Positions 1,566 through 18,433 of a stretch of DNA of 64,000 nt are shown here, piece by piece (position 1 is the first letter of the stretch; every line of letters starts with the position of its first letter). This stretch comes from Nesterenkonia populi (GTDB taxonomy: Bacteria > Actinomycetota > Actinomycetes > Actinomycetales > Micrococcaceae). The notes below the pieces were generated by a model, which ran no database searches, was not told the origin of the DNA, and saw only the letters and a list, made by a program, of their open reading frames with translations. The position numbers were made by a program, and so were the translations under genes. The DNA lies in assembly GCF_007994735.1 (NCBI RefSeq), contig NZ_VOIL01000001.1:1054001-1118000 (forward strand), in the 5' to 3' direction.

Positions 1566-2769
1566 GCTCCTATATCTGTCAAATAGCTACTTGGGCTACC
1601 TCTGCGGTCCCGGGGCGGGCCTTGATGAGGTGGTAGACCTCACGGATGACGTAGCGTTTCAGGCAACGGATGATGTCGCGTTTGGACTTGCCTTCAGCGA
1701 TGCGGCGGGCCACATAGGCCTTGGTGGGCTCGTGGTGCTGCATCCGGACGATCACGGTCCGATAGATCGCGGAGTTCAGCTGTCGGTGGCCTCCGTGATT
1801 GATCCTGTGCTTACCGCTGGTCATCCCTGATCCGGTGGGCACTGGGCTGATACCAGCCAGTTTCGCGAAGGCAGCCTCGGAACGGATTCGTTCCGGGTTG
1901 TCTCCAGCGACGATGAGGATCTCGGCGGCGGTGTCGATGCCGATACCGAAACGCTCCAGCAGCTCTGGGCACTGAGCCGTGACCAGCTGGGCGATCATCT
2001 CTGCGACTTCTTTAACCTCGGAGTCCATTACCAGCCACCGCTTGGCCAGGGTGCGCAGGCAGTGCCGCAGAGCATCTTCCGGGGTGGATAGGCTCCGGGG
2101 ACGCAGTGCAGCCAGGTGTCGGGCAAGTTTGATCCGTGTCATCCGGTTGGTGGTGGCCCGCAGTTCGTCGTCGCCGTGGACGAGCATGCCTTTGAGGATC
2201 ACCATAGCTGCTGAGCGGTCACGCACCGCGGTGTCGTGGACGACCTTCAGTTGCCGGATTATCTCCACGGCGCCATCAGCGGTCTTCGGGGTCGCTGTGG
2301 CCAGCCCTGAGAGTGCCGCTCGTGCGGCATTCTCAGCGTCGAGGGTGTCGGATTTGCCGTTCATCCGGCGCATCCGCCGATCTGGCCTTCCGGCTTCGAT
2401 CACCTTGTGCCCGTTCCGGCGCAGGAATGAAGTCAGGGTGGCCCCGTAAGAGCCGGTGCCTTCGATGCCGAAGACCAGGACCTTCCCGAAGGATTCTGCC
2501 CAGGTCAACAGCTGCTTGAAACCGCCGGTGTCGGTGCTGATCGTCAACGTGGCCAGGATTCCGGCGACGGAATCCATGACCGCGGCGACGTGGATGTGTT
2601 TGTGGGTATCGACGCCGATAACGACGTATCCCGATCTGATCTCTGGCGCTGTGGCCATAGTCCCTGCGCTCCTTGCCGGCGTAGTGTGAACGTTGCACAC
2701 TGTCGTCGGCCAGGTGGACAGGACTGTCACGAGGACGCTTCGTTGACTTGCTTGGCTCCAGGCTCCTAT
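1566..2769 (-). mobile_element. IS110-family insertion sequence inside the IS3 element
   Basis: The sequence GCTCCTAT occurs at 1566-1573 and again at 2762-2769, bracketing a complete IS110-type transposase gene. IS110-family elements lack long terminal inverted repeats and often sit between short direct repeats of a core target, which fits. Its left edge coincides with the loss of IS3 orfB similarity. The right edge is placed only by the repeat and could be off by some bases. Confidence 0.65.
1579..2658 (-). CDS. IS110-family transposase (DEDD type)
   Basis: This 359-residue protein has the RuvC-like DEDD catalytic domain at the N-terminus: IGVDTHK near residue 15 (first D), GIEGTGSYG near 63 (E) and KSDTLDAENAARA near 97-100 (two D). 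The C-terminal transposase-20 domain has GISPVPTGSG and a GGHRQLNSAIY motif carrying the conserved serine. The start is the ATG at 2658, giving MATAPEIRSG. A longer frame upstream has no family similarity. The gene looks intact, so this may be the only active element of the nest. IS110 transposases act with a noncoding bridge RNA made from the element ends. The upstream 2659-2769 stretch is the natural place to look for it. Confidence 0.92.
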   Translation of the reverse strand: MATAPEIRSGYVVIGVDTHKHIHVAAVMDSVAGILATLTISTDTGGFKQLLTWAESFGKVLVFGIEGTGSYGATLTSFLRRNGHKVIEAGRPDRRMRRMNGKSDTLDAENAARAALSGLATATPKTADGAVEIIRQLKVVHDTAVRDRSAAMVILKGMLVHGDDELRATTNRMTRIKLARHLAALRPRSLSTPEDALRHCLRTLAKRWLVMDSEVKEVAEMIAQLVTAQCPELLERFGIGIDTAAEILIVAGDNPERIRSEAAFAKLAGISPVPTGSGMTSGKHRINHGGHRQLNSAIYRTVIVRMQHHEPTKAYVARRIAEGKSKRDIIRCLKRYVIREVYHLIKARPGTAEVAQVAI

Positions 2770-3025
2770 TAGGTCACTCCTGGTCGGCGGCAGCGTGTTC
2801 TTGCCTGCCCGGCCGGAAGCTCGACAGTACAACGCCAAGGCACCATCAGGGTCCAGTCATAAGCAAGGGTCAGAGCACTCCGGTCGGGACTACCCGATTC
2901 TTGCGGAACCCGGTAGAAACAGACTGACAGTCGTAGCTATCCCCAACAGTGCCGATCGAAGCAGTGGCCCCGATTTCGGCCAGTCTCTCGCCGTAGCGAA
3001 TGGATGTGAATTGGCCGTATTCAAC
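2770..3025. other. Unassigned DNA between IS110 and the IS30 fragment
   Basis: These 256 bases match neither the IS3 element around them nor a gene I recognise. A plus-strand frame crosses them and ends at 3026-3028 (...QSLAVANGCELAVFN). It could be the 3' end of a host gene carried in with the IS30 fragment, but that is speculation. Confidence 0.35.
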
Positions 3026-3172
3026 TGATCCTCGCAACACCTACTTGAAAGAGGTGTTCGATGGGGATCGGGGCGAAGCAGAAACGCGTTCGTGAGTATC
3101 GGGGTCAGATCGTTTCACCAGGGCGACCGACTGTGGCATGGCGAGAAGATCGAGTGCGGTTCTGGGAAGGCA
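3026..3172 (+). pseudogene. IS30-family element, 5' fragment
   Basis: The fragment begins TGATCCTCGCAACACC, which looks like an IS30-type left end. A frame then starts at ATG 3061 after a GAAAGAGG ribosome binding site. It encodes MGIGAKQKRV..., then SPGRPTVAWREDRVRFWE, the N-terminal block of actinobacterial IS30 transposases. Similarity stops after RFWE-G-I at about 3166-3172, where the sequence becomes IS3 orfB on the opposite strand. Only about 35 of the roughly 400 residues remain. Confidence 0.65.
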
Positions 3173-3665
3173 TCGATGATGAAGCAGACATAGGCCACAC
3201 CGGCCCAGGTCGGCACGTAGGTCAGATCGGTGACCCAGAGCCGATTCGGCGCGATCGCGGTGAACTCGCGGTTGACCAGATCCGGATGCCGTGGGGCTTC
3301 AGGGTCAGGTGTGGTGGTGCGGATCTTCTTGCGCCGAAGAACACCTTCGAGGCCAGTGTGGCGCATCAGTCGCGCCGTCTGATCTCTACCGATCTGCAGG
3401 CCGGCCCGGTTCGCGGTTTTCCAGAGTTTCCTGGCTCCATAGACTCCGTAGTTCTGGGCATGGAGTTTCACCAGCTGCGGGATCAGCTCAGAATCTCTCA
3501 CGCTCCGAGCTGAGGGGGCGCGGTGTTTCGCGGCGTAGTAGGTGCTCGGAGCCACCTGCAGCATCGTGCAGATGGGCTCGACTCCGAGTCGACGGCCTTC
3601 AACAACGTCGTCCTTGTTAGCTTCGATGAAGGCGACTATCTCGGTGACTGGCGGTCGAGTTCCGC
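3167..3665 (-). pseudogene. IS3-family transposase orfB, N-terminal fragment
   Basis: The frame lies in the -1 register relative to orfA, as expected for an OrfAB fusion made by programmed -1 frameshifting near CTTTCTTCG. It reads PVTEIVAFIEANKD, MLQVAPSTYYAAKHR, YGVYGARKLWKTANR (the HTH_21 domain), then PNRLWVTDLTYV with the first catalytic D, and ends at CFIIDAF. It is cut at about 3167-3172 by the IS30 fragment. The remaining integrase core resumes only as the fragment at 1323-1565. Non-functional. Confidence 0.88.
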
Positions 3666-3980
3666 CCCGAAGAAAGTCGCGGCCCGTTTCAGAATCTCGT
3701 TGGCGCGCCGCAGTTCTCGGTTCTCTTGTTCCAGGGCTTTCTCCCGCGCGGACTGCTCGGTGCTCTGGCCCGGAGCGCGGCCCTCATCGATGTCAGCTCG
3801 GCGGACCCAGGACCGGACTGACTCGGGGCCGTAGCCCAGCTGGGTCGCAACCCTCTTCACGGTGCCGCGGTCGGTGCCCAGCTCCTTGCGCAGCTGGCGG
3901 ACCATCCGCACCGCCGCGGCCTTCTCCTGCTCGGAGTATCGGCGCGTGGTCGCATTGCCCGGGTTGACCTCTCTTGGCAT
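3636..3980 (-). CDS. IS3-family OrfA, helix-turn-helix protein
   Basis: A 114-residue protein from ATG 3980 (MPREVNPGNATTRRYSEQEK). It has the transposase_8 type helix-turn-helix (RVATQLGYGPESVRSWVRRA near residues 43-62) and a C-terminal leucine-rich coiled coil (ALEQENRELRRANEILKRA). This matches the DNA-binding half of IS3 transposases in length and layout. The frame starts about 55 bases inside the inverted repeat end at 4034. OrfA is intact, but the orfB it should fuse with is broken. Confidence 0.88.
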   Translation of the reverse strand: MPREVNPGNATTRRYSEQEKAAAVRMVRQLRKELGTDRGTVKRVATQLGYGPESVRSWVRRADIDEGRAPGQSTEQSAREKALEQENRELRRANEILKRAATFFGAELDRQSPR

Positions 3981-4005
3981 GTCTCCATCATCCTTTCCAA
4001 ACGAT

Positions 4006-4034
4006 GGAGTCTCCAAGAAACCCAGGGCGGTTCA
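4006..4034 (-). repeat. IS3-family terminal inverted repeat, orfA end
   Basis: Read on the minus strand it begins TGAACCGCCCTGGGTTTCT and ends TGGAGACTCC. It is the partner of 1292-1320. The next base outward belongs to the ISL3-family fragment. Confidence 0.85.
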
Positions 4035-4744
4035 CCGCCCGGTTGCTGGATCTGGTGCCTGGGCGCACCGGCACTGTCTACGCTGACTGGCTCAACCAAC
4101 GCGGCAAGGACTTCCGCGACGGTATCCAGGTCGCCCCGCTGGACCCTTTCGCCGGGTACAAGAACGCCATCGATTCCAAGCTCGATGAGGCCACCGCCGT
4201 GTTGGATGCCTTCCACGTGGTCAAACTCGGCACCCAGGCCGTGGATGAGGTCCGCCGTAGGGTTCAGCAAGAGACCCTGGGCCACCGGGGACGTAAGGGT
4301 GACCCGCTCTACCGGATCCGGCGGCTGCTGCAGACAGGCATCGAGAACCTCACCGAGGCCCAGTGCCGGAAGATCGAGGAGGTGATCACCGCTGACCCCC
4401 GGCATGAGGAATTCTTCCTGGCCTTCCAATGCGCCCAAGAACTCCGGGTTGCCTACCAGCACAAGGACCTACGCGCCGGACGGCGGATCGCGGTCAAGGT
4501 GCTGGAGTCTTTCCGGTCCTGCCCGGTCCCGGAGATCGCCAGGCTCAGGCGGACCCTCAGGCGGTGGCGGACCGAGTTCCTGGGCTACTTCACCACCGGA
4601 CGGGCCAACAACGGCGGGACTGAGGCCATCAACGGGCTCATCGAACTGGCCCGCCGCATCGCCCGAGGCTTCCGCAACAGACACAACTACCGGCTACGTA
4701 TGCTGCTGATCGGCGGAGGCCTCGACGGGCACATCCCCACCTGA
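4034..4744 (+). pseudogene. ISL3-family transposase, C-terminal part
   Basis: About 236 codons of a DDE transposase of the ISL3 family, which is normally 400 residues or more. Visible blocks are TARLLDLVPGRTG, then LDPFAGYKNAI, VLDAFHVVKLG (catalytic D region), and near the end GGTEAINGLIELARRIA with the catalytic E, followed by GFRNRHNYRLRML. The zinc-finger and helix-turn-helix N-terminus is missing, because the IS3 inverted repeat ends directly upstream. An IS3 insertion into this gene followed by loss of the other half explains the junction. Non-functional. Confidence 0.88.
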
Positions 4745-4780: not shown

Positions 4781-6568
4781 TCAGCGCACTACTTCGCGCA
4801 GCGAGGCGTCAAGGCGGCGAGTCCACCCCAAGGAGTCAAGATGCTCCAGCAGAGGAACAGCCACTCGCCGGGTGGTGCCCAGCGCCTGCCGTGCGGCACT
4901 CATGGTGAAGGGCTGCTCCAGTGCGGCCAGCTCTCGCATCGCTCGGGCCGGTGAGCTGGGCAGCAGGACCACGCCGTCAGCGAGCCGCAGCAGTCGTGCG
5001 TGACGTTCGGCCGCGGCCAGCTCCCGTTCGCCCAGCCCCAGCTCAGACAGCCTCTGCGCCTCCGGCGCGCGGAACGGGTACTCGTTCAGTTCGCGCTCCA
5101 GGAGAGCCGTCGACTTCTCCGCCGGGCCCAGGGTGCGCCGCCCAGACCCGGTCGTGATGCGGCCTGCCGCCTGGTGGAGCCCGGCCTCAAGGATCAGCGG
5201 TGTCAGCAATGCGCTGTCCGGCAGTGCGAGAAGATCGACCGCAGCACCTTTGGAGAGCCCCGCGGACAGAGCGTCCCGCTGGGTGTGATTCTCCACAGCG
5301 TCCCGCAGCTGCTGCCCCCACCGGGTGACCTGCTCTGCGTCCAGGAGCCAGTCGTCGATCCGCCGCACCTGAGGGGGCAGCGCATCGGGCACCTGGATGC
5401 CCATGCGGCGCAGCGAGTCGGCGGTGACGGCTGTCCGCCGGAGAACCTCGTCCCGGAGGTCTCCTGCGGCGGGCATGCTTGCCAGCCTTGTGGCGCGCCG
5501 TCGACCGTCCCCGCGGCGGCTCAGCGAAGGCGGGACGACGTCGAGCACCTGTGCACCCGCCAGGACTGTGCGGCTGCCGGAGGTCCGCAGAAGCAGACGG
5601 TCTCCGATCTGCGCCGGAACCGGCCGGGTGAGCGTGAGACGGGCGTGGTGGTCGTCGAACCGGCGGCATCTGGCGGCCACGGCGGCGGTGCCTATATGGA
5701 CGGTGACGCTCTGCGGCGCGTTGGAGAAGTCCTCTCCCGTGGTGTGCCGAACGTCGATCGTGCGGGTGAGGTGCCAGTCCCCGGGACTGAGCAGAACATC
5801 GCCGCGCCCGATCTGCTCGGCGACTGTCCCGCGCAGGTTGATTGCGGCCCGGTGGGCGGCCTCCAGGATCTCCACGTCAGCACCCTGTGCCTGAAGTCCT
5901 CGGATCACCACCGTCTCGTCGACCTGCTCGCCGAACAGGTGCAGCCGCTGTTCACGGTGGAGCCGCCCCGCAGCGAGCGTGCCGGTGACCACGGTGCCGG
6001 CACCGCGGAGACTGAACGCCCGGTCGACCCACGTCCGTACCGGAGCATCGACCTGGGGTCGTGGAGCTGCGGCGAGCACCGAGTCGAGGGTCCTGCGCAG
6101 CTGATCCATGCCGGCGCCCGTGGCGGCGGAGACCGCTGCAGCAGGTGCGGCGCCCAGGCCGGTGCGGGAAAGCTCGTGACGCGCCTGCTCCAGGACCTCG
6201 GGAACCTGGTCGCTGGCACGATCCGTGCGGGTGATGACGATCAGCCCCGTCTCGATGCCCAGGGCAGCAATCGCGTCCCTGTGGTCGCTGGACTGGGGCT
6301 GCCATCCTTCATCGGCGGCGACGACGAAGCAGACCATGGGCGCTGGGCCGAGGCCGGAGAGCATGTTCCCCAGGAAGCGCTCATGCCCAGGGACGTCCAC
6401 GAAGGAGACGACCCGCCCCGAGGGCAGTGCGGTGGCGGCGAAGCCCAGGTCGATCGTCAGTCCGCGGCGATGCTCTTCATCCCAACGGTCCGGCTCGGTG
6501 CCGGTCAGTGCTCGGACCAGTGTGGACTTGCCATGATCGACATGACCGGCGGTGGCCATGACAAACAT
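4781..6568 (-). CDS. selB: Selenocysteine-specific elongation factor SelB
   Basis: A 595-residue GTPase that carries selenocysteinyl-tRNA to ribosomes stalled at a UGA followed by a SECIS hairpin. The EF-Tu-like half comes first: P-loop GHVDHGKST at residues 8-16, DVPGHE (G3) and ITRTDRA in the G4 position. The beta-barrel domains and C-terminal winged-helix repeats that read the SECIS RNA follow. The start is ATG 6568 (MFVMATAGHVDHGK). The longer upstream frame lies inside selA and has no similarity. The ATG is 2 bases after the selA stop, so the two genes are translationally linked. The C-terminal part is poorly conserved in this family, so I infer winged helices from length and position only. 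Confidence 0.96.
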   Translation of the reverse strand: MFVMATAGHVDHGKSTLVRALTGTEPDRWDEEHRRGLTIDLGFAATALPSGRVVSFVDVPGHERFLGNMLSGLGPAPMVCFVVAADEGWQPQSSDHRDAIAALGIETGLIVITRTDRASDQVPEVLEQARHELSRTGLGAAPAAAVSAATGAGMDQLRRTLDSVLAAAPRPQVDAPVRTWVDRAFSLRGAGTVVTGTLAAGRLHREQRLHLFGEQVDETVVIRGLQAQGADVEILEAAHRAAINLRGTVAEQIGRGDVLLSPGDWHLTRTIDVRHTTGEDFSNAPQSVTVHIGTAAVAARCRRFDDHHARLTLTRPVPAQIGDRLLLRTSGSRTVLAGAQVLDVVPPSLSRRGDGRRRATRLASMPAAGDLRDEVLRRTAVTADSLRRMGIQVPDALPPQVRRIDDWLLDAEQVTRWGQQLRDAVENHTQRDALSAGLSKGAAVDLLALPDSALLTPLILEAGLHQAAGRITTGSGRRTLGPAEKSTALLERELNEYPFRAPEAQRLSELGLGERELAAAERHARLLRLADGVVLLPSSPARAMRELAALEQPFTMSAARQALGTTRRVAVPLLEHLDSLGWTRRLDASLREVVR

Positions 6569-6570
6569 CG

Positions 6571-7911
6571 TCAGCCGACCCCTCGGGTGGGGGGAGGGAG
6601 GTCTTCCAGGGCCGTGCGGACGGCCTGCAGGACGGTCTCGTCCTCGCTCTCCGGCACGCAGCGCAGATCCAGCAGACACCATGCGCCGTGGGTGCGGGTG
6701 ACAACAGGCGGCTCGCCGCTTCTGAGGAGCGCGGCGGCCGGCTCGGGAAGCTGGACCGCCGAGCCGGGCAGCGGCACTCCAGGTCCCCCTCCGCCGCCTG
6801 CACGACCGTCATGAGGAACCACCTCGGCTCCCAGCGAGTCAGCCATGCGCTGGGTGCGCTGGCGCAGCTTCTCGCCGTCCGGGCTCAGTGCCGTGCTCAC
6901 CGGGGTCTCGCCGCCGTTCAGCGTCGCCTCCAGTCCGGCAAGGGTGAGCTTGTCGGTGCGCATCGCTCGGGCCAGCGGGTGTGCGGAGAGCTGTGAGATG
7001 ACAGCCGAGGTGCCCAGCAGCAAGCCTGCCTGGGGCCCTCCCAGCAGCTTGTCCCCACTGGCGATGACCAAGTCCGCCCCATCGCTCAGGGTGGTGGCGA
7101 GATCAGGCTCATCAGGCAGCGCCGCCTCCGGCGCGAGGAGACCGCTGCCGATGTCTGCCACCAGGGGCAGCTGGTGCTGCCGGCTCAAGGCGGCCAGCTC
7201 TGCGACTGTCGCGGAGGACGTGAACCCGCTGATGCGGTAGTTGCTGGGGTGGACTTTCAGCACGCAGGCCGGGGTGCCTTCGGGTATCTGAGCCAGGGCG
7301 GCGGCATAGTCGGAGCGGTGGGTGCGGTTGGTGGTGCCGACTTCGAGCAGCTGGGCGCCTGTGGATTCGATGAGTTCCGGCAAGCGGAAGCCGGCACCAA
7401 TCTCGACCAGCTCTCCGCGGCTGATGACGATCGTGCCGGTGCCCACAAGCGCGGCGGCCGCAAGAGCCAGTGCGGCGGCACCGTTGTTGACGACCAGCGC
7501 ATCCTCGGCCGGTGGGCAGGCGGCGAGCAGGGCGCGGCGGGCTGATGCCCCGCGCCGGGAGCGGCGGCCCGTCTCAAGATTCATCTCCACATCGACGTAT
7601 CCGGCCGCGTCGGCGACGGCGCTGCGGGCCGCGGGGGAGAGGGGCGCGCGACCGAGATTCGTGTGGACGACCACGCCGGTGGCGTTGATGACAGGCCGCA
7701 TGGACGATGGTCGGTAGGCATCCAGCTGGGCGAGCACTTCCCCCTCTACACGGTCCGGGGGCAGCTCACCGTGGCGGGCGCGCTCCTGAGCCTGGTGGAT
7801 CAGCTGTTCGATCACATGGCGGCTGAGGGTGTTCGAGGCCCTGCGCACGCGAGGGTGGGACAGCAGGGTGTCAGTCCCCGGAATGAGGCGGCGAGGATCG
7901 TCTTCGACCAC
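6571..7911 (-). CDS. selA: L-seryl-tRNA(Sec) selenium transferase SelA
   Basis: A PLP enzyme that converts Ser-tRNA(Sec) to Sec-tRNA(Sec) using selenophosphate. Conserved blocks are RPVINATGVVVHTNLGRAPL near residues 70-90, a glycine-rich cofactor region, and ASGDKLLGGPQAG with the Schiff-base lysine. At 446 residues it is close to the usual 450-465. The start is GTG 7911 with GGAGGGAG about 7 bases upstream. The open frame continues further upstream but runs through the selenocysteine tRNA gene, so those starts are excluded. It lies 71 bases downstream of selC and 2 bases upstream of selB, forming a selC-selA-selB unit. Confidence 0.96.
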   Translation of the reverse strand: MVEDDPRRLIPGTDTLLSHPRVRRASNTLSRHVIEQLIHQAQERARHGELPPDRVEGEVLAQLDAYRPSSMRPVINATGVVVHTNLGRAPLSPAARSAVADAAGYVDVEMNLETGRRSRRGASARRALLAACPPAEDALVVNNGAAALALAAAALVGTGTIVISRGELVEIGAGFRLPELIESTGAQLLEVGTTNRTHRSDYAAALAQIPEGTPACVLKVHPSNYRISGFTSSATVAELAALSRQHQLPLVADIGSGLLAPEAALPDEPDLATTLSDGADLVIASGDKLLGGPQAGLLLGTSAVISQLSAHPLARAMRTDKLTLAGLEATLNGGETPVSTALSPDGEKLRQRTQRMADSLGAEVVPHDGRAGGGGGPGVPLPGSAVQLPEPAAALLRSGEPPVVTRTHGAWCLLDLRCVPESEDETVLQAVRTALEDLPPPTRGVG

Positions 7912-7982
7912 GTCTGGTCTCCCTCCGACCGGTGGTGGCGTCGCCGCGGAGCGTTCTCGGCAAGGCGGCGCCTGTGCGCGTG

Positions 7983-8077
7983 TGGCGGAGGCGGACGGGA
8001 ATCGAACCCGCCAGACCGAGATGCTCGGTCTCAACGGTTTTGAAGACCGCGGAGCCCACCAGGACTCATACGCCTCC
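7983..8077 (-). tRNA. selC: Selenocysteine tRNA, anticodon TCA
   Basis: A 95-base tRNA with encoded CCA. The acceptor GGAGGCG pairs with CGCCTCC. The anticodon arm is CGGTCTTCAAAACCG with anticodon TCA, which reads UGA. A long variable arm GAGACCGAGCATCTCGGTCT follows. The T arm is GCGGGTTCGATTCCCGT. The long extra arm, the overall length well above a normal tRNA and the TCA anticodon identify tRNA(Sec). It sits between selA and the divergent selD. Confidence 0.97.
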
Positions 8078-8141
8078 TCCCTCAAAGTACCACGGAGGCT
8101 CCCGGCCGCAGGCCCCTGAGAAGGGGAGATGCAGCCTGAGG

Positions 8142-8170
8142 GTGACCTTCTCCTCCTGCGCTCCTATACT
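8142..8170 (+). promoter_or_regulatory. Probable selD promoter (leaderless transcript)
   Basis: GTGACC at 8142-8147 and TATACT at 8165-8170 are separated by 17 bases, a good housekeeping sigma spacing. The selD ATG begins 7 bases after the -10 box, so the transcript would start at or next to the ATG. No Shine-Dalgarno sequence is present, consistent with leaderless translation. Confidence 0.6.
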
Positions 8171-8177
8171 CGGCCCC

Positions 8178-9185
8178 ATGCCCGCTCATGCTGCTGCACC
8201 GCGACTGACGACCTACGCTCACGGCGGAGGATGTGCGTGCAAGATCCCGCCGGGCGAGCTGGAGGAGGTGCTGGGCGGCCTGCCGTCTCCGCAGCACGAC
8301 GAGGTCCTCGTGGGCCTGAACAACGGCGACGACGCCGCAGCGGTTCGCCTCGACGGCCGCACCGCCGTTCTCTCCACCGCTGACTTCTTCACCCCGGTGG
8401 TCGATGACGCCTATGACTGGGGCCGGATCGCCGCGGCCAACGCGCTCTCCGACATCTACGCGATGGGCGGCACGCCGATGGTGGCCATCAACCTGGTCGG
8501 ATGGCCCCGGGAGACTCTGCCGATGGAGCTGCTGGCTGAGGTGCTGCGCGGCGGTCTGGCGGTCGCCGAACAGGCAGGGTGCCCCCTGATCGGCGGCCAC
8601 ACGGTGGACGATCCGGAGCCGAAGTACGGCTTGTCTGTGACAGGCACCGCGCCGATCCAGGATCTGCTGCGCAACGACGCAGCCGAGCCGGGTCTGCCCC
8701 TGACGCTGACCAAGCCGATCGGCCTGGGGCTGCTCAACAACCGCCACAAGACCACCGGCGAGGTCTTCGCCGAAGCAGTTGAGACAATGGTCACGCTGAA
8801 CCGCGACGCCGCTCAGGCTGCTGTCGCAGCGGGCGCGCGAGCGGCCACCGACGTGACGGGCTTCGGGCTGCTGGGCCACCTGTACAAAATGTGCCGAGGA
8901 TCCGGCGTCGGCGCCCGTCTCGAAGCCGCAGCGGTCCCGCTGATCGATGGAGCAGCCGAGGCGCTGCGTGAGGGGTATGTCTCCGGGGGCACCCGGCGGA
9001 ACCTCGACTGGGTGCGTGAGCATCTCAGCGCCGGCGGCGGCATCGGTGAGGAAGAGCTGCTGACGCTGGCAGACGCTCAGACATCCGGCGGTCTGCTGGT
9101 GGTCGGGGAAGTGCCCGGCTACCCGGTCATCGGGCACACCACGCCGGCTCCGGAGACCGGGGGCCCGGTCCTCGAGATCCGCTGA
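8178..9185 (+). CDS. selD: Selenide, water dikinase SelD (cysteine form)
   Basis: Makes selenophosphate from selenide and ATP, the selenium donor for SelA. A 335-residue AIR synthase-fold protein. The N-terminal active-site segment reads HGGGCACKIPP, with Cys19 and Lys22 corresponding to catalytic Cys17 and Lys20 of E. coli SelD. Many SelDs have selenocysteine at the first position, but this one has cysteine. Later motifs include NNGDDAAAVRLD, TADFFTPVVDD and ATDVTGFGLLGH. The start ATG 8178 gives MPAHAAAPRL. An upstream frame overlaps the tRNA(Sec) gene and is ignored. Transcribed divergently from selC-selA-selB and convergent with the formate dehydrogenase operon. Confidence 0.96.
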   Translation: MPAHAAAPRLTTYAHGGGCACKIPPGELEEVLGGLPSPQHDEVLVGLNNGDDAAAVRLDGRTAVLSTADFFTPVVDDAYDWGRIAAANALSDIYAMGGTPMVAINLVGWPRETLPMELLAEVLRGGLAVAEQAGCPLIGGHTVDDPEPKYGLSVTGTAPIQDLLRNDAAEPGLPLTLTKPIGLGLLNNRHKTTGEVFAEAVETMVTLNRDAAQAAVAAGARAATDVTGFGLLGHLYKMCRGSGVGARLEAAAVPLIDGAAEALREGYVSGGTRRNLDWVREHLSAGGGIGEEELLTLADAQTSGGLLVVGEVPGYPVIGHTTPAPETGGPVLEIR

Positions 9186-9213
9186 GCCTGAGCGTCATCA
9201 TCGCCGCTCAGGC
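9186..9213. terminator. Hairpin between convergent selD and nrfD-like gene
   Basis: GCCTGAGCG at 9186-9194 and CGCTCAGGC at 9205-9213 form a perfect 9-base-pair stem with a 10-base loop. It sits immediately after the selD stop and overlaps the stop of the opposite gene. It can act in both directions. No clear T-run follows. Confidence 0.6.
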
Positions 9214-10272
9214 GAGGGTGGTGATGGAGTCGTCCACCACCCCATCGGCCTGCCTTGCCTGCAGCCGGGCCTTCTGCGGCTCCACCGTGTGCCGGGGATC
9301 TTCAGCTGAGGCGATGCCTGCGCGCAGGATCCCCAGTCGGGTGAGGGCGGATCCTCCGAGCATCAGCAGCCCGCTGGCCGCCGCCGGCGCGCGCCGACCG
9401 CCCAGGAGCACAGATCCGACCGCGCCGGCGACGGTGAGCCGTTCAGCCCACTTCAGCATGGTGCCGGCAGCGCCCTTCTCCAGCGGCTCAGCCTCGGCAG
9501 GGTGCATCCGCTTCTTCATCACCTTCATCGAGATCACCTCGCCCACGCCCGCGACCGCCGAGAGCGCCCTGGCCGGCTGCGTCTGGGCCGTCGGCGTTGA
9601 GACCAGCGCCGCGCCGGAAGCCGCCAGGGACGCAGAGGAGGCGAACAGGAACGGGAGCTCGTCGCGGCCTGCGTTCCAAGTGGGCACCGCGGTGTCGGCC
9701 AGAAGGGCGCCGGTGTAGCTGGCCAGGGGAGCAGCCAGCAGGGCCGTCCCCGCCTCGGCAGGCCCTTCCATCCCGTGCAGCAGACGGCGGCCTGGGCCCA
9801 GGGGCAGCCGGTATCGGGACAGACGGTCCACCTCCACGGCGGCGGTGACACCTGCCGCGGTGCTGAAGGAGCTCAGCAGCCAGCTGCCCATGCTCATCGG
9901 CGAGGTGGGCTTGAACGTGCGCAGCATGTATAGGAACCGTTCGGGCCGGCCCAGGTCATGGATGAGCGCCGCAGTGCCCAGCCCGGCCGCGCCCAGGGAG
10001 ATGATCCGTGCATTGCGCTGCAGGATCGGTTTGCCGGTCAGCTGGGCCCCGGCGGAGAGCAGAGAGGAGCCGCCGGCCAGCCCGCCGAGGAAGAGGTAGC
10101 CTGCGATCTCGTCGCCCCAGGGCGGGGCTTTGACGACCGGCCGGCCGTAGTAGGAGGAGAAGTTCGGCTTCTCGACCACCGGCACTTCGCGCGCGCCTTC
10201 GTCGGCCTTCCGCTTTCTGCCCTCCGCACGAGGCTCCGGGTGTCGGTAGGCGTCGTGCTGCGACGTCGTCAC
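9208..10272 (-). CDS. NrfD-family membrane subunit of formate dehydrogenase
   Basis: A 354-residue protein of the NrfD/PsrC polysulfide-reductase membrane subunit family. It probably anchors the dehydrogenase and passes electrons to the quinone pool. A 50-residue hydrophilic N-terminus (ending VEKPNFSSYYGRP) leads into several hydrophobic helices, the first being AGYLFLGGLAGGSSLL near 57-72. Later blocks include FLYMLRTFKPTSPMSMGSW. The start is GTG 10272, whose GTGA overlaps the stop of the iron-sulfur subunit by 4 bases, so the genes are translationally coupled. It is last in the three-gene operon. Sequence alone does not show whether it binds heme. Confidence 0.85.
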   Translation of the reverse strand: MTTSQHDAYRHPEPRAEGRKRKADEGAREVPVVEKPNFSSYYGRPVVKAPPWGDEIAGYLFLGGLAGGSSLLSAGAQLTGKPILQRNARIISLGAAGLGTAALIHDLGRPERFLYMLRTFKPTSPMSMGSWLLSSFSTAAGVTAAVEVDRLSRYRLPLGPGRRLLHGMEGPAEAGTALLAAPLASYTGALLADTAVPTWNAGRDELPFLFASSASLAASGAALVSTPTAQTQPARALSAVAGVGEVISMKVMKKRMHPAEAEPLEKGAAGTMLKWAERLTVAGAVGSVLLGGRRAPAAASGLLMLGGSALTRLGILRAGIASAEDPRHTVEPQKARLQARQADGVVDDSITTLA

Positions 10273-11276
10273 CGGCGGCCTCCCCAGACGAAGGAAGCCC
10301 CTACTGCGGCGAGCATGCCGGCCGCGGCCATCGCGGTGTGCTTGTACATCCGCGGCAGATCCTTCGTGGGAACACGGGGGTCGGGCGGAAGGCCGTAGAC
10401 CTCCGGCTCATCCAGAAGGAGGAACACGGAGCCGGTTCCTCCGACGCCGTCATTGGGGTTGGCCCCATAGAGGCGGGCCTCAGTCATGCCCTGGCTGTGC
10501 AGCTCGGCGACGCGCTCGCGGGCCTGGGCGACCATATCGGTGTGCTCGCCGAATTTGATCGAGGTGGTGGGGCAGGTCTGGGCGCAGGCCGGAGTCTGGC
10601 CGTCCACGAGCCTGTCGTGGCAGAACGTGCACTTATTGGCAGTGCCCTCATTGGGCACCTCCTGGGCAAATTTGGACTGGTTCCGCTCCACCTTGGCCCG
10701 AATGATCCCCTCATCACGGCGCTCGATCACCCCGAACGGGCATCCGCCCACGCAGGTGCCGCAGCCGTTGCAGATGTCTTCCTGGACTTTGACCGTGCCG
10801 AATTCGGTGCGGAACAGTGCCCCGGTGGGGCACACGTCCAGGCAGCCGGCGTGGGTGCAGTGCTTGCACACGTCCGATGACATCAGCCAACGGAACTCGT
10901 CGGTGTCCGGGGGAGCGGTGTCGGATCCTGCCGCGGAGGCCGAACCGGACGACGGGGGCGGCCCCACGCTCGGCATTCCCAGCTCGACCAGCTGCCTGCC
11001 GGACTCTCGCGCGGTCTCGATACGGTCCTTGTCCTGCTCCACGAAGGCGACGTGGCGCCAGGTATTCGCGCCCAGCCCGCCGGTGTTGTCATAGGAGGAC
11101 TCCAGCAGCTCCAGGTCACCGTCCTGCGGATTGCGGTTCCACTCCTTGCAGGCGACCTCACAAGCTTTGCACCCGATGCAGATCGAGGTGTCAGTGAAGA
11201 ACGACTTGCGGGCCTCGGCGCGGTCCCCGTGGGCTTCGGCGCTGCGATGGAGATCTTCGGTGAGCGAACCCATCAT
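10269..11276 (-). CDS. Formate dehydrogenase iron-sulfur subunit
   Basis: A 335-residue ferredoxin-like subunit wiring the catalytic subunit to the membrane subunit. Four cysteine groups for [4Fe-4S] clusters are visible: CIGCKACEVACKEW near residues 33-46, CKHCTHAGCLDVCPTGA near 136-152, CNGCGTCVGGCPFGV near 169-183, and CTFCHDRL with CAQTCPTTS near 217-240. A glycine/serine/proline-rich insert (about 100-125) separates the first two. A single hydrophobic segment at the C-terminus (HTAMAAAGMLAAVGASFVWG) probably anchors it in the membrane. It overlaps both neighbours by 4 bases. No Tat signal is seen, suggesting a cytoplasmic-facing complex. Confidence 0.93.
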   Translation of the reverse strand: MMGSLTEDLHRSAEAHGDRAEARKSFFTDTSICIGCKACEVACKEWNRNPQDGDLELLESSYDNTGGLGANTWRHVAFVEQDKDRIETARESGRQLVELGMPSVGPPPSSGSASAAGSDTAPPDTDEFRWLMSSDVCKHCTHAGCLDVCPTGALFRTEFGTVKVQEDICNGCGTCVGGCPFGVIERRDEGIIRAKVERNQSKFAQEVPNEGTANKCTFCHDRLVDGQTPACAQTCPTTSIKFGEHTDMVAQARERVAELHSQGMTEARLYGANPNDGVGGTGSVFLLLDEPEVYGLPPDPRVPTKDLPRMYKHTAMAAAGMLAAVGASFVWGGRR

Positions 11277-14200
11277 TCCTCCTCACTGGTGGTGTCGTCC
11301 GACTCGCCGTAGGGCACGGTGAGCCGTTCGTTGCCTGTCTGCGCGGTGACGCCTGCCCGCCGCCGGTGATCCTCGACCAGGTCGAGCAGCTCCCGGCCGC
11401 GCGGGCGCCGGCCCGGCTGAACGGCGCACTGGGCGGCTTTGGACCCCTGGATATGGACGTTGGGGTCCAGCGTGATTCCCAGCAGGTCGTTGGCCGCATC
11501 GCCCTCCACCACTGCGTCTGTGCCGGTTCCCCAGTGGTAAGGAAGCCCCACCTGGTGGATGCGTCGGCCGCCGGCGGTCAGGGGGCGGACCCGATCGGTG
11601 ACGAGCACCTTGGCCTCGATGGCCGAGCGCGGCGAAATGATGGTCGCCCACCCATAGTTCTCCAGGCCGATCAGCTCTGCGAACTCCGGGGAGACCTCGC
11701 AGAACATCTCCGGCTGCAGCTCGGCGAGGTACGGCAGGAACCGGCTCATGCCTCCGGCCGTGTGGTGCTCGGTCAGGCGATAGGTGGTGAAGACGTGGGG
11801 GTAGACCTCGGATCCCGGATCCACCGCCGAGGGCGCGAGCAGGTTGTCACTGCGGGGGAAGACGATGCGCGCAGGGTTGCTCTGCTGCCCGTAGAGAGGG
11901 TTCGAGATCGGCGACTCCGGGGGCTCATAGTGGGTGGGCATCGGTCCGTCCGCCATGCCGCTGGGCGCAAACAGCCACCCCTTGCCGTCGGCCTGCATGA
12001 TGAAGGGGTCGTCGCCGGCGAGCGCCTCGGGGCCGCCCGCCTCCGGATCTGACTTCGCTCCCGGCGGCAGGCCTTTGGGGAAGTCCGGGACGTCTTTGCC
12101 TGTCCAATGCTCGTGGTCGGCGTCCCACCAGATGTACTTCTTGCGCTCGCTCCACGGACGCCCTTGGGGGTCGGCCGAAGCCCGGTTGTACAGCACACGG
12201 CGGTTGGCCGGCCAGGCCCAGGCCCACTCGGCGGCGGTCTCGTCCTGCTCCTGGCCGGGTCTGCGGCGCGCCGCCTGGTTGACCCCGTCGGCGTAGATCC
12301 CGGTGTAGATCCAGCAGCCTCCGGCGGTGGAACCGTCGCCGCGCATCTCGGTGAAGGCCGAAAGCGGCTTTCCTGCCTCGGTTCCCGAGACATGATAGCC
12401 GTTGATCTCCTTCAGGATGGCCTCGGCATCGGGCTCTCCGTGCTGGTCAGTGGGATAGTCCCAGGTCAGGTCCAGCAGCGGCTTGTCCCGCGGGTCATCG
12501 GAGTCCGCAAGGCGTTCCCGGAGGCGCCTGCCCAGCTCGTAGAAGAACTGCAGCTCGCTCTGGGCGTCCCCGGGCGGATGCACGGCTTGGTGACGCCATT
12601 GGACGAGTCGCTGGGTCTGTGTGAAGGACCCGGCCTTCTCTGTGTGATTGGCCGCCGGCATGAAGAAGACCTCGGTGTCGATGTCCTCAGTGCGCAGCTC
12701 GCCGCTTTCGATCTCGGGGCCGTCCTTCCACCAGGTGGCGGATTCGATGAGGTTGAAGTCGCGGACCACCAGCCACTTCAGATGGGACATGCCCATTCTC
12801 TGCATCTTGCCGTTGGCGGAGCCCACAGCGGGGTTCTGTCCCACCAGGAAGTAGCCGTCGAGCTCGTCGCGGAGCATACGCTCCACTGTCTGGTAGGTTC
12901 CGTGGGCTCCGGTCAGCCGCGGCAGGTACTCGTAGGCATAGTCGTTGTCCTGGTGCGCGGCATCGCCCCACCAGGCCTTGAGCAGGTTGACGGTGTAGAT
13001 GTCGGCGTTGGCCCAGAAGCCCTTCTGATGCTTTGAGCCGATCGCTTCGGTGAACTCATCCAAGGTGTTGTGCTGTCCGGCCTCGGGCATCGGCAGGTAG
13101 CCGGGCAGGAGGTTGAACAGTGTGGGGATGTCGGTGGAGCCCTGGATGGTGGCGTGGCCGCGCAGGGCGATGATGCCGCCGCCGGGCCGTCCCATGTTCC
13201 CCAAGAGAAGCTGCAGCACAGCTGCTGTGCGGATGAACTGTGCGCCCTGGGCGTGCTGGGTCCAGCCCACCGCATAGCAGAAGGCTGTGGTGCGGTCGCG
13301 GCCCGAGTTCTTGGCCACCGACTCGGCCAGGTACCGGAAGTCCTCGGCGGAGATGCCGCAGGCCTCTTCCACCATCTCTGGGGTGTACCGGAGGTAGTGA
13401 CGCTTCAGCACTTGGAAGACGCAGCGCGGATCCTGCAGGGTGTCGTCGTGAGCCAGGTCGGCGTGGCTCAGGGGCGGACCGCCCTCTCCGTACTCCTGCG
13501 GCTCCGCCTCATCGCCATCCTCTTGAGGGCCGGGCTGCTCAACCTTCTCGTCACGACCAGAAGTTTGGTAGGACCAGGAGGTCTCGTCGTAGGTGCCCTT
13601 CTCCTGGCTGTAGCCGGAGAAGAGGCCGTCCAGGTCTTCGGCGCCCTGGTAGTCCTCAGAGACGATGGTGGCCGCATTGGTGTAGTGGCGGACGTACTCC
13701 TCGAAGTGCAGGTCGTTGCTCAGCACATAGTTGATCAGCGCGCCGAGGAGCACGATGTCGCTGCCGGCGCGCAGAGCGATGTGCTTGTCGGCCACTGCGC
13801 TGGTGCGCGTGAATCGAGGGTCGACGTGAATGATGCGTGCCCCGCGCTTCTTCGCCTCAGTCACCCACTGGAATCCGACAGGGTGGCACTCGGCCATATT
13901 GGATCCCTGAATGACGATGCAGTCAGCGTTGGCCAGATCCTGCTGGGGCTGTGTGGCGCCGCCTCGCCCGAACGAGGTTCCCAGACCGGGAACCGTGGAG
14001 GAGTGTCAAATGCGCGCTTGGTTCTCGATCTGCACCGCACCGGCGGCGGAGAAGAGCTTCTTGATCAGGTAGTTCTCTTCGTTATCGATGGTCGCCCCGC
14101 CGAGGCTGGCGACGCCTAGGGTGCGGTTGACCGGATTGCCGTGCTGGTCGTGGTCCTCCCAGTGGCGGCGGCGAGCGTCGATGAACCGGTCGGCGATCAT

Positions 14201-14572
14201 GTCCATCGCCCGGTCCTGGTCCAGCGCCTCCCACTCGTGCGAGCGCGGAGCGCGGTAGAGGATCTTGGTCTGGCGTCCCGCAGAGTTGACGAGCTGCTCG
14301 CTGGCTGCGCCTTTGGGGCAGAGCCGTCCGCGGGAGATGGGGGAGTCGGGGTCTCCCTCAATGTGGATCACGCGGTCGTCTTTGGCATAGACCTTCTGGC
14401 CGCATCCGACCGCGCAGTAGGGGCAGATGCTCTGCACCACGGTGTCAGCGTCGTCAGTGCGGGGGGTGGTCTCACGCGTCTGCTTGGACGTCACCGCGGC
14501 GCCGCGGCCGGTGGAGTCCCGGGAGCGCAGCTGGCGAATGACGGGCCATTCTAGAGGCGTGAGCCGTTCCAT
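11273..14572 (-). CDS. Selenocysteine-containing formate dehydrogenase catalytic subunit
   Basis: Molybdopterin/tungstopterin oxidoreductase that oxidises formate. It is a single 1099-residue frame if the TGA at 14006-14008 is read as selenocysteine (residue 189). The context is ENQARI-Sec-HSSTVPGLG, the exact active-site block where Cys homologues have ENQARICHSS. The protein continues in frame through ADCIVIQGSNMAECHPVGFQ. The N-terminal [4Fe-4S] site has Cys50, Cys53, Cys57 (CPYCAVGCGQ) and Cys85 (GRLCPKG). The ATG at 14572 gives MERLTPLEWPVIRQLRSRD, matching the conserved start of actinobacterial homologues. No Tat signal. A gene finder would split this into a 188-residue protein and an 874-residue protein. 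First gene of the operon, overlapping the next by 4 bases. Confidence 0.95.
13976..14008 (-). promoter_or_regulatory. UGA-Sec codon with SECIS hairpin
   Basis: On the minus strand, TGA at 14008-14006 is followed after 11 bases by GGTTCCC (13994-13988), the loop GGTCT and GGGAACC (13982-13976), a perfect 7-base-pair stem. The GGTCT loop and the 11-base spacing match the E. coli fdhF SECIS, where SelB reads the loop G and U. The hairpin also encodes the conserved protein sequence after Sec. Confidence 0.92.
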
Positions 14573-14676: not shown

Positions 14677-15621
14677 TCAGCCGAGGCCGAGCAGCGGCTG
14701 CTGGCTGGCGACCGCGTCCGCCGCCGTCGTCGTGAGGATGTCGAGGGCCGCCGAGATCAGCCGGCGCTGCTCGGAGCCGCGGCGCACCGCTGTCAGTATC
14801 GTGCGGACCGGGGCGGTGGGCCCGGAGAGGCTGACGCGAACCACCCCGGGATGGGTGGGTGCCATCCGCGGCATCAGGGAGACTCCCAGCCCGGAGGCGA
14901 CCAGGGTGGAGACGGCCGTCCAGTCCTGGGCATGGTGGTCCTCCGGCGGGGTGAAGCCTGCCTTTGAGCACTGCTCCAGAATCTCCTGCCGAGACCCCTG
15001 CCCGGCAGATCCCAGGATCCACGGCTCCTGGGAGGCCTCAGCCAGCTTCACCTCATCCTCCCGGACCGCGAGCGGGTGCCCGCGCGGCACAATCAGGTCC
15101 GCGGGCTCTGTGACCAGTCGCCGCACCGCAAAGCGAGGGTGGTCATCAGCCGGGGCATGCGGGCCCGCAGGCATGATCACGATGTCGGCCTCCCGCGCTG
15201 TGAGCAGACGCTGCCCCAGCGCCGGCTCGGCCTCCCGCACGCGCCAGACGCTGTGCTCCCACACTGTCCCCCAACGGTGGAGGGCCGGCAGGACGATCGA
15301 GGAGATCGCAAAGACGTGCGAGGCGATCCGCAGCTCGCCCACGCTCGGATCCGCCGCGTCGGAGACTGCCATCCGTGCGGCCTCATCCGCGGCGTGCAGC
15401 TGCGGGGCCGCCCGCACCAGAGCCTCAGCGGCCGCGGTCAGCTCGACGGTGCGGCCCTGACGCTCCAGCAGCGGGGTGCCCAGCTCGGCTGAGAGCCGTT
15501 GGATCTGCCGGGATATGCCCGACGCGTTGCGGCCCAAAACGTCAGCGGCGGCGTTGACCCCGCCGTACTGCGCCACCGCCTCCAGCAGCGGCAGCGCCTC
15601 ATCAATCAGCCGAACACCCAT
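14677..15621 (-). CDS. LysR-family transcriptional regulator
   Basis: A 314-residue regulator with an N-terminal winged helix-turn-helix (LLEAVAQYGGVNAAADVLGR, then ASGISRQIQRLSAELGTPL, near residues 10-50) and a C-terminal periplasmic-binding-like effector domain (VGELRIASHVFAISSIVLPA; LGVSLMPRMAP). The start is ATG 15621 (MGVRLIDEALP). An earlier TTG at 15651 lies inside a palindrome that is better explained as an operator. It is divergent from the EamA transporter gene, the usual LysR arrangement, so that gene is its likeliest target. Formate dehydrogenase starts 104 bases downstream on the same strand and may be co-transcribed or regulated. The ligand is unknown. Confidence 0.9.
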   Translation of the reverse strand: MGVRLIDEALPLLEAVAQYGGVNAAADVLGRNASGISRQIQRLSAELGTPLLERQGRTVELTAAAEALVRAAPQLHAADEAARMAVSDAADPSVGELRIASHVFAISSIVLPALHRWGTVWEHSVWRVREAEPALGQRLLTAREADIVIMPAGPHAPADDHPRFAVRRLVTEPADLIVPRGHPLAVREDEVKLAEASQEPWILGSAGQGSRQEILEQCSKAGFTPPEDHHAQDWTAVSTLVASGLGVSLMPRMAPTHPGVVRVSLSGPTAPVRTILTAVRRGSEQRRLISAALDILTTTAADAVASQQPLLGLG

Positions 15622-15633
15622 CCCACCAGTCAA

Positions 15634-15654
15634 CCATTGCTGTGTGAGCAATGG
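15634..15654. promoter_or_regulatory. LysR-type operator palindrome
   Basis: CCATTGCT and AGCAATGG are perfect inverted repeats separated by 5 bases (GTGTG). They contain the T-N11-A LysR box pattern. The palindrome lies 12 bases upstream of the regulator ATG and 57 bases upstream of the divergent transporter ATG, fitting autoregulation plus control of the transporter. Confidence 0.7.
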
Positions 15655-16681: not shown

Positions 16682-18433
16682 TCAGTCCTCGACGGGAAAT
16701 TCGAGAATGACCGGCTCGTCGGTCTCGATGGTGTCGCTGCCCCCGCCGTAGTCGATGTCCAGCTCGGCGGTCAGCTCCACGGCGCTCGCGCTGATGGGGA
16801 TCTGCAGGGCCGCGCCGTAGTCGCCGTAGGGCCACTGATTGATGCCGGAGGCCTGGGAGGTGTACTCGTGCTGGGTGCTCTGCCCGTCCTCATCGGTGGC
16901 GGTGATGGTCCAGGTGCCGCCGTCGAAGTCGAGGGTGCCGTCGGGCCCCTGCATCTCGATGCGCATGTCCAGGATCAGCCAGATGCTGCCGGCCTCAGCC
17001 GGCCCGGTGCCTTCGAGGCCGTAGAGCATCCAGTTGTCGCTGGTGCCCTCGTTGTAGCCGTCGTTGTACTCATCGAGGTCCCACTCGAGCTCTTCGTGCT
17101 CGTAGGTGAGCATGGCTCGGCTGATGGTGAGCTCGGTCTCGTGCTCGGCGGAGTCATCGCCGTCGCTGAGTGACTGCTCCGGGAAGCTGAAGGTCGCGCC
17201 GATCTCATCGGTGTGAGGGACCTCCGGCAGACGGAAGAGCGCTGCGTCGGCGTCGTCGAGGTCCCCCTGGCTGAGGCTGACCTCCTGCTCGACGCCGTGG
17301 GCGGTGAGCACGAGGGCGTCCTCGTCTGCGACGGAGGCGATGAAGCTTCCGCTGACGTCTTCGTCTGAGAGGGGGCCGGACTGGTCCTCGCCGCCGATGC
17401 GCACAGTCAGCTCGCCGTCCTCGGGCCATTCCTCCTCAGCAGGGACGTAGCTCCAGGCGACGTAGCGCAGCTCCTCACCCTCGGGGGCGACGGCGGGCTC
17501 GCCGTCCACCTCCACGCTCTCCACCTCGGCGAACTCGTCGAAGGCCACGCTGCCCACCGGGGAGGAGAGGGTCGGCAGCTCGGCGAAGTCCTCGCCGCGC
17601 TCGAAACCGGCCTCGTCCGGCTCCTGGAGGAAGAACCCGGGCTCGACGACGCTGGCCTCGTCATCCGCCTCCTGCTCCTCGTCACCATGCTCGTCGAGGC
17701 GCTCCTCATCCCGCTCCTCAGCGTTCTCCCCATCGTCGCCGAAGAGATCCCATTGGCGGGTGTCCTCGTTGATGAGCAGCAGCCAGGCGGCCGCCGCCAG
17801 AATGGCTGCGGTGACGAGGCTGAGGATCGCCAGGACGAGGCACATCCCTCGGCTGCCGCTGCCCTTCTTCTCGGGCTCATTCTGGTGAGCCGCCGGCTGC
17901 TGGTAGGGCTGCTGCTCCTGGTGCTGAGCCGGCGCCTGCTCATGAGCGGCCGCGGCGGGGTCCGCGGGGGTGCTGGCGCTCAGCGGGGGCAGGGCCGTGG
18001 TCGCCTGCAGCTGCTCGGAGGAGTCTCCGGGGACGTCACCCCCGGCCTCGGAGGGGGACTCCGCCGGCAGCACCTCGGTGGGCTGCTCGTCGGCGGGCTC
18101 GGCCTGCTCCGGTGCGTCGGCGGCGTGGGTCGCCTGCTGCTCAGCGGGGGCGGCGTCGTCAGCCTGCTCCTCCGGATCCTCCTGCTGAGGGGAAGTCTGT
18201 GCGGCCCGGCTGATGTCTGTCCAGGTGCCGTCGGGAGCGCGGAAGCCTGGGTGCCAGGTGCCCTGCTGGTCGTGGAAGCCGGCGTGCCAGGTGCCCTGCT
18301 GGTCGTAGAAGCCGGGCTGCCACTGGCCATGGGCGTCGTAGAAGCCGCCGTACCAGGTCCCCTGGGGGTCATGGAAGCCGGGCTGCCACTGGCCATTGCC
18401 GTCGACCGCGCCCTGCGGCTGATTGTCACTCAC
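16682..18433 (-). CDS. Membrane-anchored acidic protein with N-terminal WxxGF repeats
   Basis: A 583-residue protein with no family that I recognise. Residues 14-68 are five tandem 11-residue repeats of the form G-Q/T-W-x-x-G-F-H/Y-D-x-Q (e.g. GQWQPGFYDQQ). A P/Q/E/A-rich linker runs to about 190, then one membrane helix (MCLVLAILSLVTAAILAAAAWLL near 200-222). The rest is a strongly acidic extracytoplasmic region without cysteines of note. The start is GTG 18433 with GAGGGG 9 bases upstream. This cytoplasm-in, C-terminus-out layout is shared with the gene at 20436-21683, so the two may belong to one envelope function. Single gene, convergent with the transporter. Confidence 0.8.
   Translation of the reverse strand: MSDNQPQGAVDGNGQWQPGFHDPQGTWYGGFYDAHGQWQPGFYDQQGTWHAGFHDQQGTWHPGFRAPDGTWTDISRAAQTSPQQEDPEEQADDAAPAEQQATHAADAPEQAEPADEQPTEVLPAESPSEAGGDVPGDSSEQLQATTALPPLSASTPADPAAAAHEQAPAQHQEQQPYQQPAAHQNEPEKKGSGSRGMCLVLAILSLVTAAILAAAAWLLLINEDTRQWDLFGDDGENAEERDEERLDEHGDEEQEADDEASVVEPGFFLQEPDEAGFERGEDFAELPTLSSPVGSVAFDEFAEVESVEVDGEPAVAPEGEELRYVAWSYVPAEEEWPEDGELTVRIGGEDQSGPLSDEDVSGSFIASVADEDALVLTAHGVEQEVSLSQGDLDDADAALFRLPEVPHTDEIGATFSFPEQSLSDGDDSAEHETELTISRAMLTYEHEELEWDLDEYNDGYNEGTSDNWMLYGLEGTGPAEAGSIWLILDMRIEMQGPDGTLDFDGGTWTITATDEDGQSTQHEYTSQASGINQWPYGDYGAALQIPISASAVELTAELDIDYGGGSDTIETDEPVILEFPVED
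18230..18394 (-). repeat. Five 33-base coding repeats (WxxGF motif)
   Basis: The DNA encodes five consecutive 11-residue units followed by a partial sixth (GTWTDI). Units 1 and 3 (GQWQPGF) and units 4 and 5 (GTWH-GF) are nearly identical at the DNA level, indicating recent tandem duplication. Confidence 0.8.

Follow-up and report, generated by a model that had tools for sequence, protein, structure and literature searches.

Selenocysteine-decoding genes and a formate dehydrogenase gene with an in-frame TGA form a compact, very probably self-sufficient module in Nesterenkonia populi

The genes for selenocysteine (Sec) decoding are clustered with those for a formate dehydrogenase with an in-frame TGA in Nesterenkonia populi (RefSeq assembly GCF_007994735.1, contig NZ_VOIL01000001.1, positions 1,054,001 to 1,118,000; this whole stretch of 64,000 nucleotides is referred to as the window). 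The window belongs to a genome of 2.55 Mb in two contigs. Judged from the sequence, the cluster almost certainly represents a self-sufficient bacterial Sec-decoding module that serves one visible client, a membrane-associated molybdenum- or tungsten-dependent formate dehydrogenase. We base this assignment on sel genes that pass curated cut-offs, on a TGA that is constant among relatives, on a covarying hairpin next to it, and on relatives with cysteine (Cys) at the site, for which no tRNA-Sec was detected. The module consists of the following features:

11273-14572, minus strand: fdhA, catalytic subunit of a Sec-containing formate dehydrogenase, 1099 amino acids when read through the TGA (NF041513, 1915 bits; 1kqf_A, E 6.5e-209; translation)
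14006-14008, minus strand: in-frame TGA, the predicted Sec codon, residue 189, ENQARI-Sec-HSS (TGA in all 80 loci read; opposite X of 1kqf and 1h0h in the alignment)
13976-13994, minus strand: Sec insertion sequence (SECIS) hairpin, 7-bp stem, GGUCU loop, beginning 11 bases past the TGA (comparative pairing and covariation)
10269-11276, minus strand: fdhB, 4Fe-4S electron-transfer subunit (Fer4 families; best solved relative 1kqf_B, E 3.5e-42; TIGR01582, 166 bits, under the cut-off of 335)
9208-10272, minus strand: nrfD, NrfD-type membrane subunit (PF03916, 69.7 bits, cut-off 25.8)
8178-9185, plus strand: selD, selenophosphate synthetase, Cys form with the motif GGGCACK (TIGR00476, 389 bits, cut-off 125)
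7983-8077, minus strand: selC, tRNA-Sec, anticodon UCA (ARAGORN; Rfam RF01852, 82.7 bits, cut-off 47)
6571-7911, minus strand: selA, L-seryl-tRNA(Sec) selenium transferase, likely with a GTG start behind GGAGGG (TIGR00474, 391 bits, cut-off 268)
4781-6568, minus strand: selB, Sec-specific elongation factor with a C-terminal winged helix (TIGR00475, 285.5 bits, cut-off 242; PF09107, SelB-wing_3)

In the direction of transcription, the order on the minus strand is fdhA-fdhB-nrfD, followed by tRNA-Sec-selA-selB, while selD, located between nrfD and the tRNA gene, is read in the opposite direction (plus strand). The start of fdhB overlaps the stop of fdhA, and the start of nrfD overlaps the stop of fdhB.

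A preliminary description, made from the letters of the window, had already recognized the clustering of selB, selA, the tRNA and selD as well as the in-frame TGA within ENQARI-Sec-HSS, and both are confirmed here. SelA, SelB, SelD and tRNA-Sec(UCA) all exceed curated cut-offs, and the tRNA is found by ARAGORN as well as by RF01852. Its RF01852 match is the only one over the cut-off in the complete genome, with 150 of 535 candidates scored. Two gene starts of the earlier calls had to be corrected. The long open reading frame (ORF) of selA runs into the tRNA, and the GTG at 7911, preceded by GGAGGG, is the likely start. The selB ORF reaches position 6682, yet the GTPase begins only near 6568, at an internal ATG. 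A minus-strand frame over the DNA of selD was considered and rejected, as it has no family match; selD itself is read from the plus strand. The Cys in the GGGCACK motif of SelD presumably occupies the Sec/Cys site of this protein. A model search of the genome yielded no match to a selenouridine synthase. The gene fdhD, the product of which is needed for maturation of formate dehydrogenases, is present elsewhere in the genome.

When read through the TGA, FdhA exceeds the cut-off of 1400 bits for the actinobacterial formate dehydrogenase family NF041513, with residues 7-1072 matching positions 4-1067 of the 1067-position profile, and it also passes the family model for the alpha subunit of formate dehydrogenase N (FDH-N; TIGR01553, 945 bits, cut-off 814). 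The TGA (14008-14006) aligns with a residue printed as X in 1kqf and 1h0h, which we take to be Sec at the active-site position. This codon is TGA in all 80 loci that were read, and their aligned stretches do not contain any other stop. The window gene is otherwise open across 1099 codons. Ordinary ORF calling divides it at the TGA into two frames (14006-14572 and 11273-13897), which may serve as a reminder to annotators that standard gene calling breaks such genes. Six distant fdhA genes with two stops were fetched as candidates for a second Sec or a recoded TAG or TAA. In four of them (L171, L172, L173, L175) the extra stop is at query position 1055-1057, near the C-terminus, and was taken as the normal end, so that the candidates were rejected; the other two (L170, L174) have no extra stop within the aligned part.

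The call of the SECIS element, which the preliminary description did not mention, was made from comparative evidence and not from the fold of the single sequence. We compared 81 distinct 46-base sequences that contain the TGA. The six inner pairs are all formed in 79 of these, while five are formed in one sequence and two in another. Covariation was analyzed for 41 of the 81 sequences, hand-picked for variety, against 500 shuffles that were not corrected for relatedness. Of the cells, 94.4% are paired (84.9% in shuffles), with a covariation score of 0.355 (0.171 in shuffles); neither value is reached by any of the 500 shuffles. When the partner is shifted by 1-3 bases, at most 64% are paired. 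Stem pairs 18-30 and 21-27 vary at third codon positions on both sides. A valine codon ending in T, C or G is accompanied by a glycine codon ending in A, G or C, and CCC..CTG is exchanged with CCG..CTC, which leaves the protein unchanged. The changes in these two pairs are thus not accounted for by the protein.

If only a lone sequence were available, one in-frame stop would look identical in a decaying pseudogene or after a sequencing error, with the sel genes being incidental, but the presence of the same TGA in all 80 loci, whose aligned stretches lack further stops, the covariation of the hairpin, and a frame open over all its other codons leave practically no room for this explanation.

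Co-occurrence of fdhA and the decoding system was analyzed in 396 genomes from the phylum (fdhA match with E <= 1e-100, tRNA-Sec with E <= 1e-10). An fdhA match was found in 125 of them and tRNA-Sec in 203. Both occur in 101 genomes, fdhA only in 24, tRNA-Sec only in 102, and neither in 169 (Fisher p 3e-16, with relatedness uncorrected). Co-occurrence, proposed as a check in the preliminary description, is seen both here and within the genus (see below). Its statement that Sec decoding is patchy in Actinomycetota holds for Nesterenkonia, where 9 of 30 genomes have tRNA-Sec, but across the phylum sample the system is widespread (203 of 396).

Six of the listed fdhA matches cover the site without a stop. 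Four of these have Cys (G067, G390, G059, G269; genomes are denoted by G and loci by L), and two have Gly. For none of these six genomes was tRNA-Sec detected. The two Gly enzymes are only about 30% identical to FdhA from the window and probably have a different function. G067 (L176) and G390 (L177), which belong to one genus, have kept fdhA-fdhB-nrfD with Cys in place of Sec. In both of these close relatives the hairpin is broken and the loop is altered too, and no match to sel genes was obtained in the 20 kb read around their fdh genes. These two genomes apparently represent a change from Sec to Cys accompanied by loss of the machinery, as far as can be judged from their sequences.

Additional clients were searched in the host genome with a covariance model built from the 41 hairpins, with 150 of 2944 candidates scored. 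The fdhA hairpin reaches 73.7 bits, while the two next best reach 17.5 bits (E 1.8) and 15.6 bits (E 4.4), so that no convincing second site for an FdhA-type hairpin was found in the genome. Judged by hairpins of this type, fdhA is the only visible client.

Several observations weigh against this interpretation of the module. Taken by itself, the fold of the window hairpin does not stand out from shuffled sequences (z -0.03; 92 of 200 are as good), and we thus rejected single-sequence folding as evidence for a SECIS element. The match to the Rfam model SECIS_3 has 28.8 bits, far under the cut-off of 63. Within the covariation analysis, changes on both sides of a pair are less extreme, as they occur at four of seven pairs compared to 2.1 in shuffles, a value matched by 8 of 500; likewise, further pair types number 9 compared to 6.6, with 16 of 500 shuffles attaining this. 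The other 18 genomes with fdhA only (e.g. G046, G071, G308, G410) have no detected tRNA-Sec, while 17 of them show TGA at the site and one has a piece that misses it; 16 of the 18 are in at least 100 contigs and the tRNA-Sec search had stricter filters, so that draft gaps or filters are probably the cause. Finally, the description of fdhA as the sole detectable Sec client refers to FdhA-type hairpins and does not extend to selenium-cofactor genes.

Gene content and order, the position of the codon and the conserved hairpin are all shown by the DNA, and from these we infer the following scheme. It includes three predictions, namely that selenium is really inserted, which way the electrons flow, and which side of the membrane FdhA faces. 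SelD would provide selenophosphate, which SelA would use to convert seryl-tRNA(Sec) to selenocysteyl-tRNA(Sec). SelB with GTP would bind this tRNA together with the hairpin just past the UGA in fdhA mRNA, so that the ribosome would place Sec at residue 189 of FdhA. FdhA would oxidize formate, FdhB would pass the electrons on via its Fe-S clusters, and the NrfD-type subunit would hand them to the membrane. The decoding part corresponds to the general bacterial route, with selenophosphate from SelD, selenocysteyl-tRNA from SelA, and delivery by SelB at a UGA with a hairpin, as described in PMC5029168.

For the catalytic and beta subunits, FDH-N from E. coli (FdnGHI, 1kqf) is the best match among solved structures and carries the X at the same aligned position. 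However, there are differences to this enzyme. The gamma subunit of E. coli FDH-N is a cytochrome b, while the membrane subunit from the window matches NrfD families only. In contrast to FDH-N, no twin-arginine (RR) pair is found in the N-terminal stretch of FdhA, read from the first ATG, GTG or TTG of the ORF, and because of this FdhA may face the cytoplasm. A hydropathy test proved insensitive, since only a single segment was found even in NrfD, and adds little on an export signal of FdhA.

Equivalent arrangements are known from related bacteria, and the window is a clean, complete and ordinary example. In Corynebacterium aurimucosum, the fdnG/fdxH genes of a Sec formate dehydrogenase with an in-frame UGA for the alpha subunit are likewise clustered with selABD and selC, and the gene order is called highly conserved (PMC2830990, 2010); this is another genus, and its gene order was inferred from locus numbers in the text. 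Actinomycetospora chiangmaiensis has a membrane-bound Sec formate dehydrogenase (FDH1) with alpha, beta and gamma subunits encoded in one cluster with SelA and SelB, but selD is listed outside the FDH1 cluster and there are three Sec formate dehydrogenase systems; selenium-dependent removal of formic acid is reported for Actinomycetospora, with FdhA1, SelA, SelB and SelD detected at low abundance in the proteome (PMC7176365, 2020). Among relatives from Micrococcales and Mycobacteriaceae we found the same TGA and hairpin as in the window. Literature searches, including Nesterenkonia with selenocysteine and Micrococcales with selenocysteine and formate dehydrogenase, did not retrieve a description of the module in Nesterenkonia among the papers listed. 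What the window offers is a compact single-client Sec system in a high-GC actinobacterium, from a genus that mixes bearers and non-bearers and is suited for tests of joint gain or loss of a decoding system and its one client.

Of 432 related stretches that were found, 80 were kept and read. Among these 80 loci, the tRNA-Sec is in reach in 72 and selA in 71. Of these 71, 48 have the order of the window, with sel genes on the fdh strand and with selD opposite and in between in all 48. In the other 23, all from Mycobacteriaceae, the sel genes flank fdhA at its other end and are encoded on the strand opposite to it (L028, L032, L033, L037-L040, L044, L046, L047, L049-L051, L057, L059, L065, L066, L068, L069, L074, L079, L080, L086). 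Where SelB is in reach (17 of these loci), it is 43-50% identical to that of the window. SelB from the flipped loci (16 rows) forms one clade, while the corresponding FdhA sequences (18 rows) are split over two positions among those of mycobacteria that carry the ordinary set, and a single clade is disfavoured (approximately unbiased test, p-AU 0.018). It thus seems that decoder and client were exchanged independently of each other in these Mycobacteriaceae. In three Brevibacterium loci (L067, L087, L088), fdhA has the TGA while tRNA-Sec and selA remain unmatched within the 10-kb flanks; a fourth locus from this genus (L078) has them linked.

Within Nesterenkonia, 30 genomes were analyzed, of which 8 have fdhA and 9 have tRNA-Sec: both occur in 8, the tRNA only in one, and neither in 21. 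Two of the genomes are incomplete. G028 (82% complete) has a contig of 4.6 kb with the tRNA, selA, selB and an incomplete selD, and G015 (L109) is a noisy assembly, 62% complete, in which fdhA and the module genes were matched in pieces. The module order is constant among the Nesterenkonia bearers that were read. Among the loci compared in the genus, the lysR-side neighbours of the window module are matched only in G015. On the selB side, G011 has an IS3 match (50%) 4.7 kb beyond selB and a segment that resembles window ORFs at 21942-23543 (at most 70%). No other neighbour matches to the scanned window ORFs were found in the stretches read, some of which are short contigs.

Transfer of Sec decoding has been argued to require clustered selA, selB and selC plus a client, mostly fdhA (PMC1794560), and transfers into two Arthrobacter are listed in PMC5029168. 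Loss has been described as well, as selA and the linked Sec formate dehydrogenase are reported to have been lost in M. ulcerans (PMC3434033). To compare the module with its hosts, we used a tree of rpoB, gyrA and alaS with 27 of the 30 Nesterenkonia rows. Left out were G008 and G010, for which either an alaS or an rpoB row is missing, and G015, a broken assembly without an rpoB row, while G028 was included without gyrA; gyrA alone is in conflict with rpoB and alaS. Presence of the module needs 6 changes on this tree (8 bearers among 27 rows), and 101 of 500 shuffles are as low. As presence is no more clustered than in shuffles, gain and loss are indistinguishable.

Specific tree groups were also tested, which had been named after the trees had been seen. 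Among seven bearers, the markers back a clade of G025, G020 and G027 at 98/99 and reject a group of G020, G005, G011 and G028 (p 0.00018). When outgroups are included, the former clade is rejected by the fdh genes (p-AU 0.00096) and by the sel genes (0.00015) separately. With six rows and no outgroup, there is no rejection by fdh (p 0.344) and a weak one by sel (p 0.040). G013 is nested in the genus by markers, but its FdhA shares only 72% identity with the window protein, and a tree constrained to place its module with the G005 and G011 modules is worse by 510 log-likelihood units. A comparison with trees of ribosomal proteins had been proposed in the preliminary description; on the markers used here, two of the eight bearers that were placed, G020 and G013, look discordant, while the conflict is weak without outgroups. 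This discordance may hint at transfer or at hidden divergence within the genus.

It is quite possible, if somewhat short of probable, that the module was inherited from a Nesterenkonia ancestor and lost many times, with its flanks being shuffled. In the FdhA tree with 83 rows, six Nesterenkonia sequences form one starred clade, and in the SelB tree all eight, including G013, do so. The concatenated modules of seven bearers, again with G013, are on one side of a branch at 83/83, which is not starred. A distribution that is no more clustered than shuffles also fits this explanation. It is opposed by the rejection of the clade of G025, G020 and G027 by both parts of the module, by the rejection of the alternative group by the markers, and by the likelihood cost for G013.

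Nearly as possible, and likewise short of probable, is that fdhA-fdhB-nrfD-selD-selC-selA-selB is a complete portable cassette which has been passed between Nesterenkonia lineages more than once, with client and decoder moving together and landing at different sites; G020 and G013 are the candidates. The position of G013 within the Nesterenkonia clade of the SelB tree makes this somewhat less likely. The earlier idea that the cluster travels as a unit is thus suggested for parts of the genus but is not shown for the copy in the window.

We consider it improbable that the whole fdh-sel block was recently acquired in this genome as a mobile cassette which arrived beside insertion sequences (ISs). 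The patchy occurrence in the genus and the neighbours on the LysR side, common only to the window and G015, would be compatible with such an event. The same applies to codon usage, as third-position GC is 0.78-0.82 for selB, selA and selD compared to 0.85-0.93 in seven of eight other ORFs (0.66 in the eighth; these ORFs were not checked as genes), which we regard as a mild hint at foreign origin of the sel genes. However, FdhA from the window clusters with FdhA from other Nesterenkonia, to which it is 83-88% identical, and overall GC of selB, selA, selD and nrfD (0.70-0.71) fits the surroundings (0.69-0.70), with slightly lower values for fdhA and fdhB (0.66). Moreover, G015 has the same neighbours on the lysR side. 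Recent transfer of the window copy is thus not shown. The elements adjoining the module on its two sides are:

14677-15651, minus strand: LysR-family regulator preceding fdhA (PF00126, PF03466), at most a possible member of the module; of the compared Nesterenkonia loci, only G015 has a match to it next to the module
1579-4744, unstranded: IS remains on the selB side, outside of the module, with an IS110 transposase, an IS3 fragment and a C-terminal ISL3 fragment (family matches)

The IS remains had been considered to fit a transfer in the preliminary description, and this point is not upheld. They are located on the selB side, and scanning of ORFs on the fdhA side as far as 21.7 kb did not reveal a transposase. 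In G015, which has retained the neighbours on the lysR side, no match to the window IS elements was found in about 6.7 kb read past selB. The remains are for this reason rejected as evidence that the cluster has moved.

Large ORFs adjoin the module at 16682-21683 and include a 583-codon frame with N-terminal repeated QPGF-like segments, a PQQ-repeat protein and an LRV_2 protein. One additional feature was annotated at a distance from the module:

58996-59054, plus strand: Actino-pnp regulatory RNA (54.9 bits)

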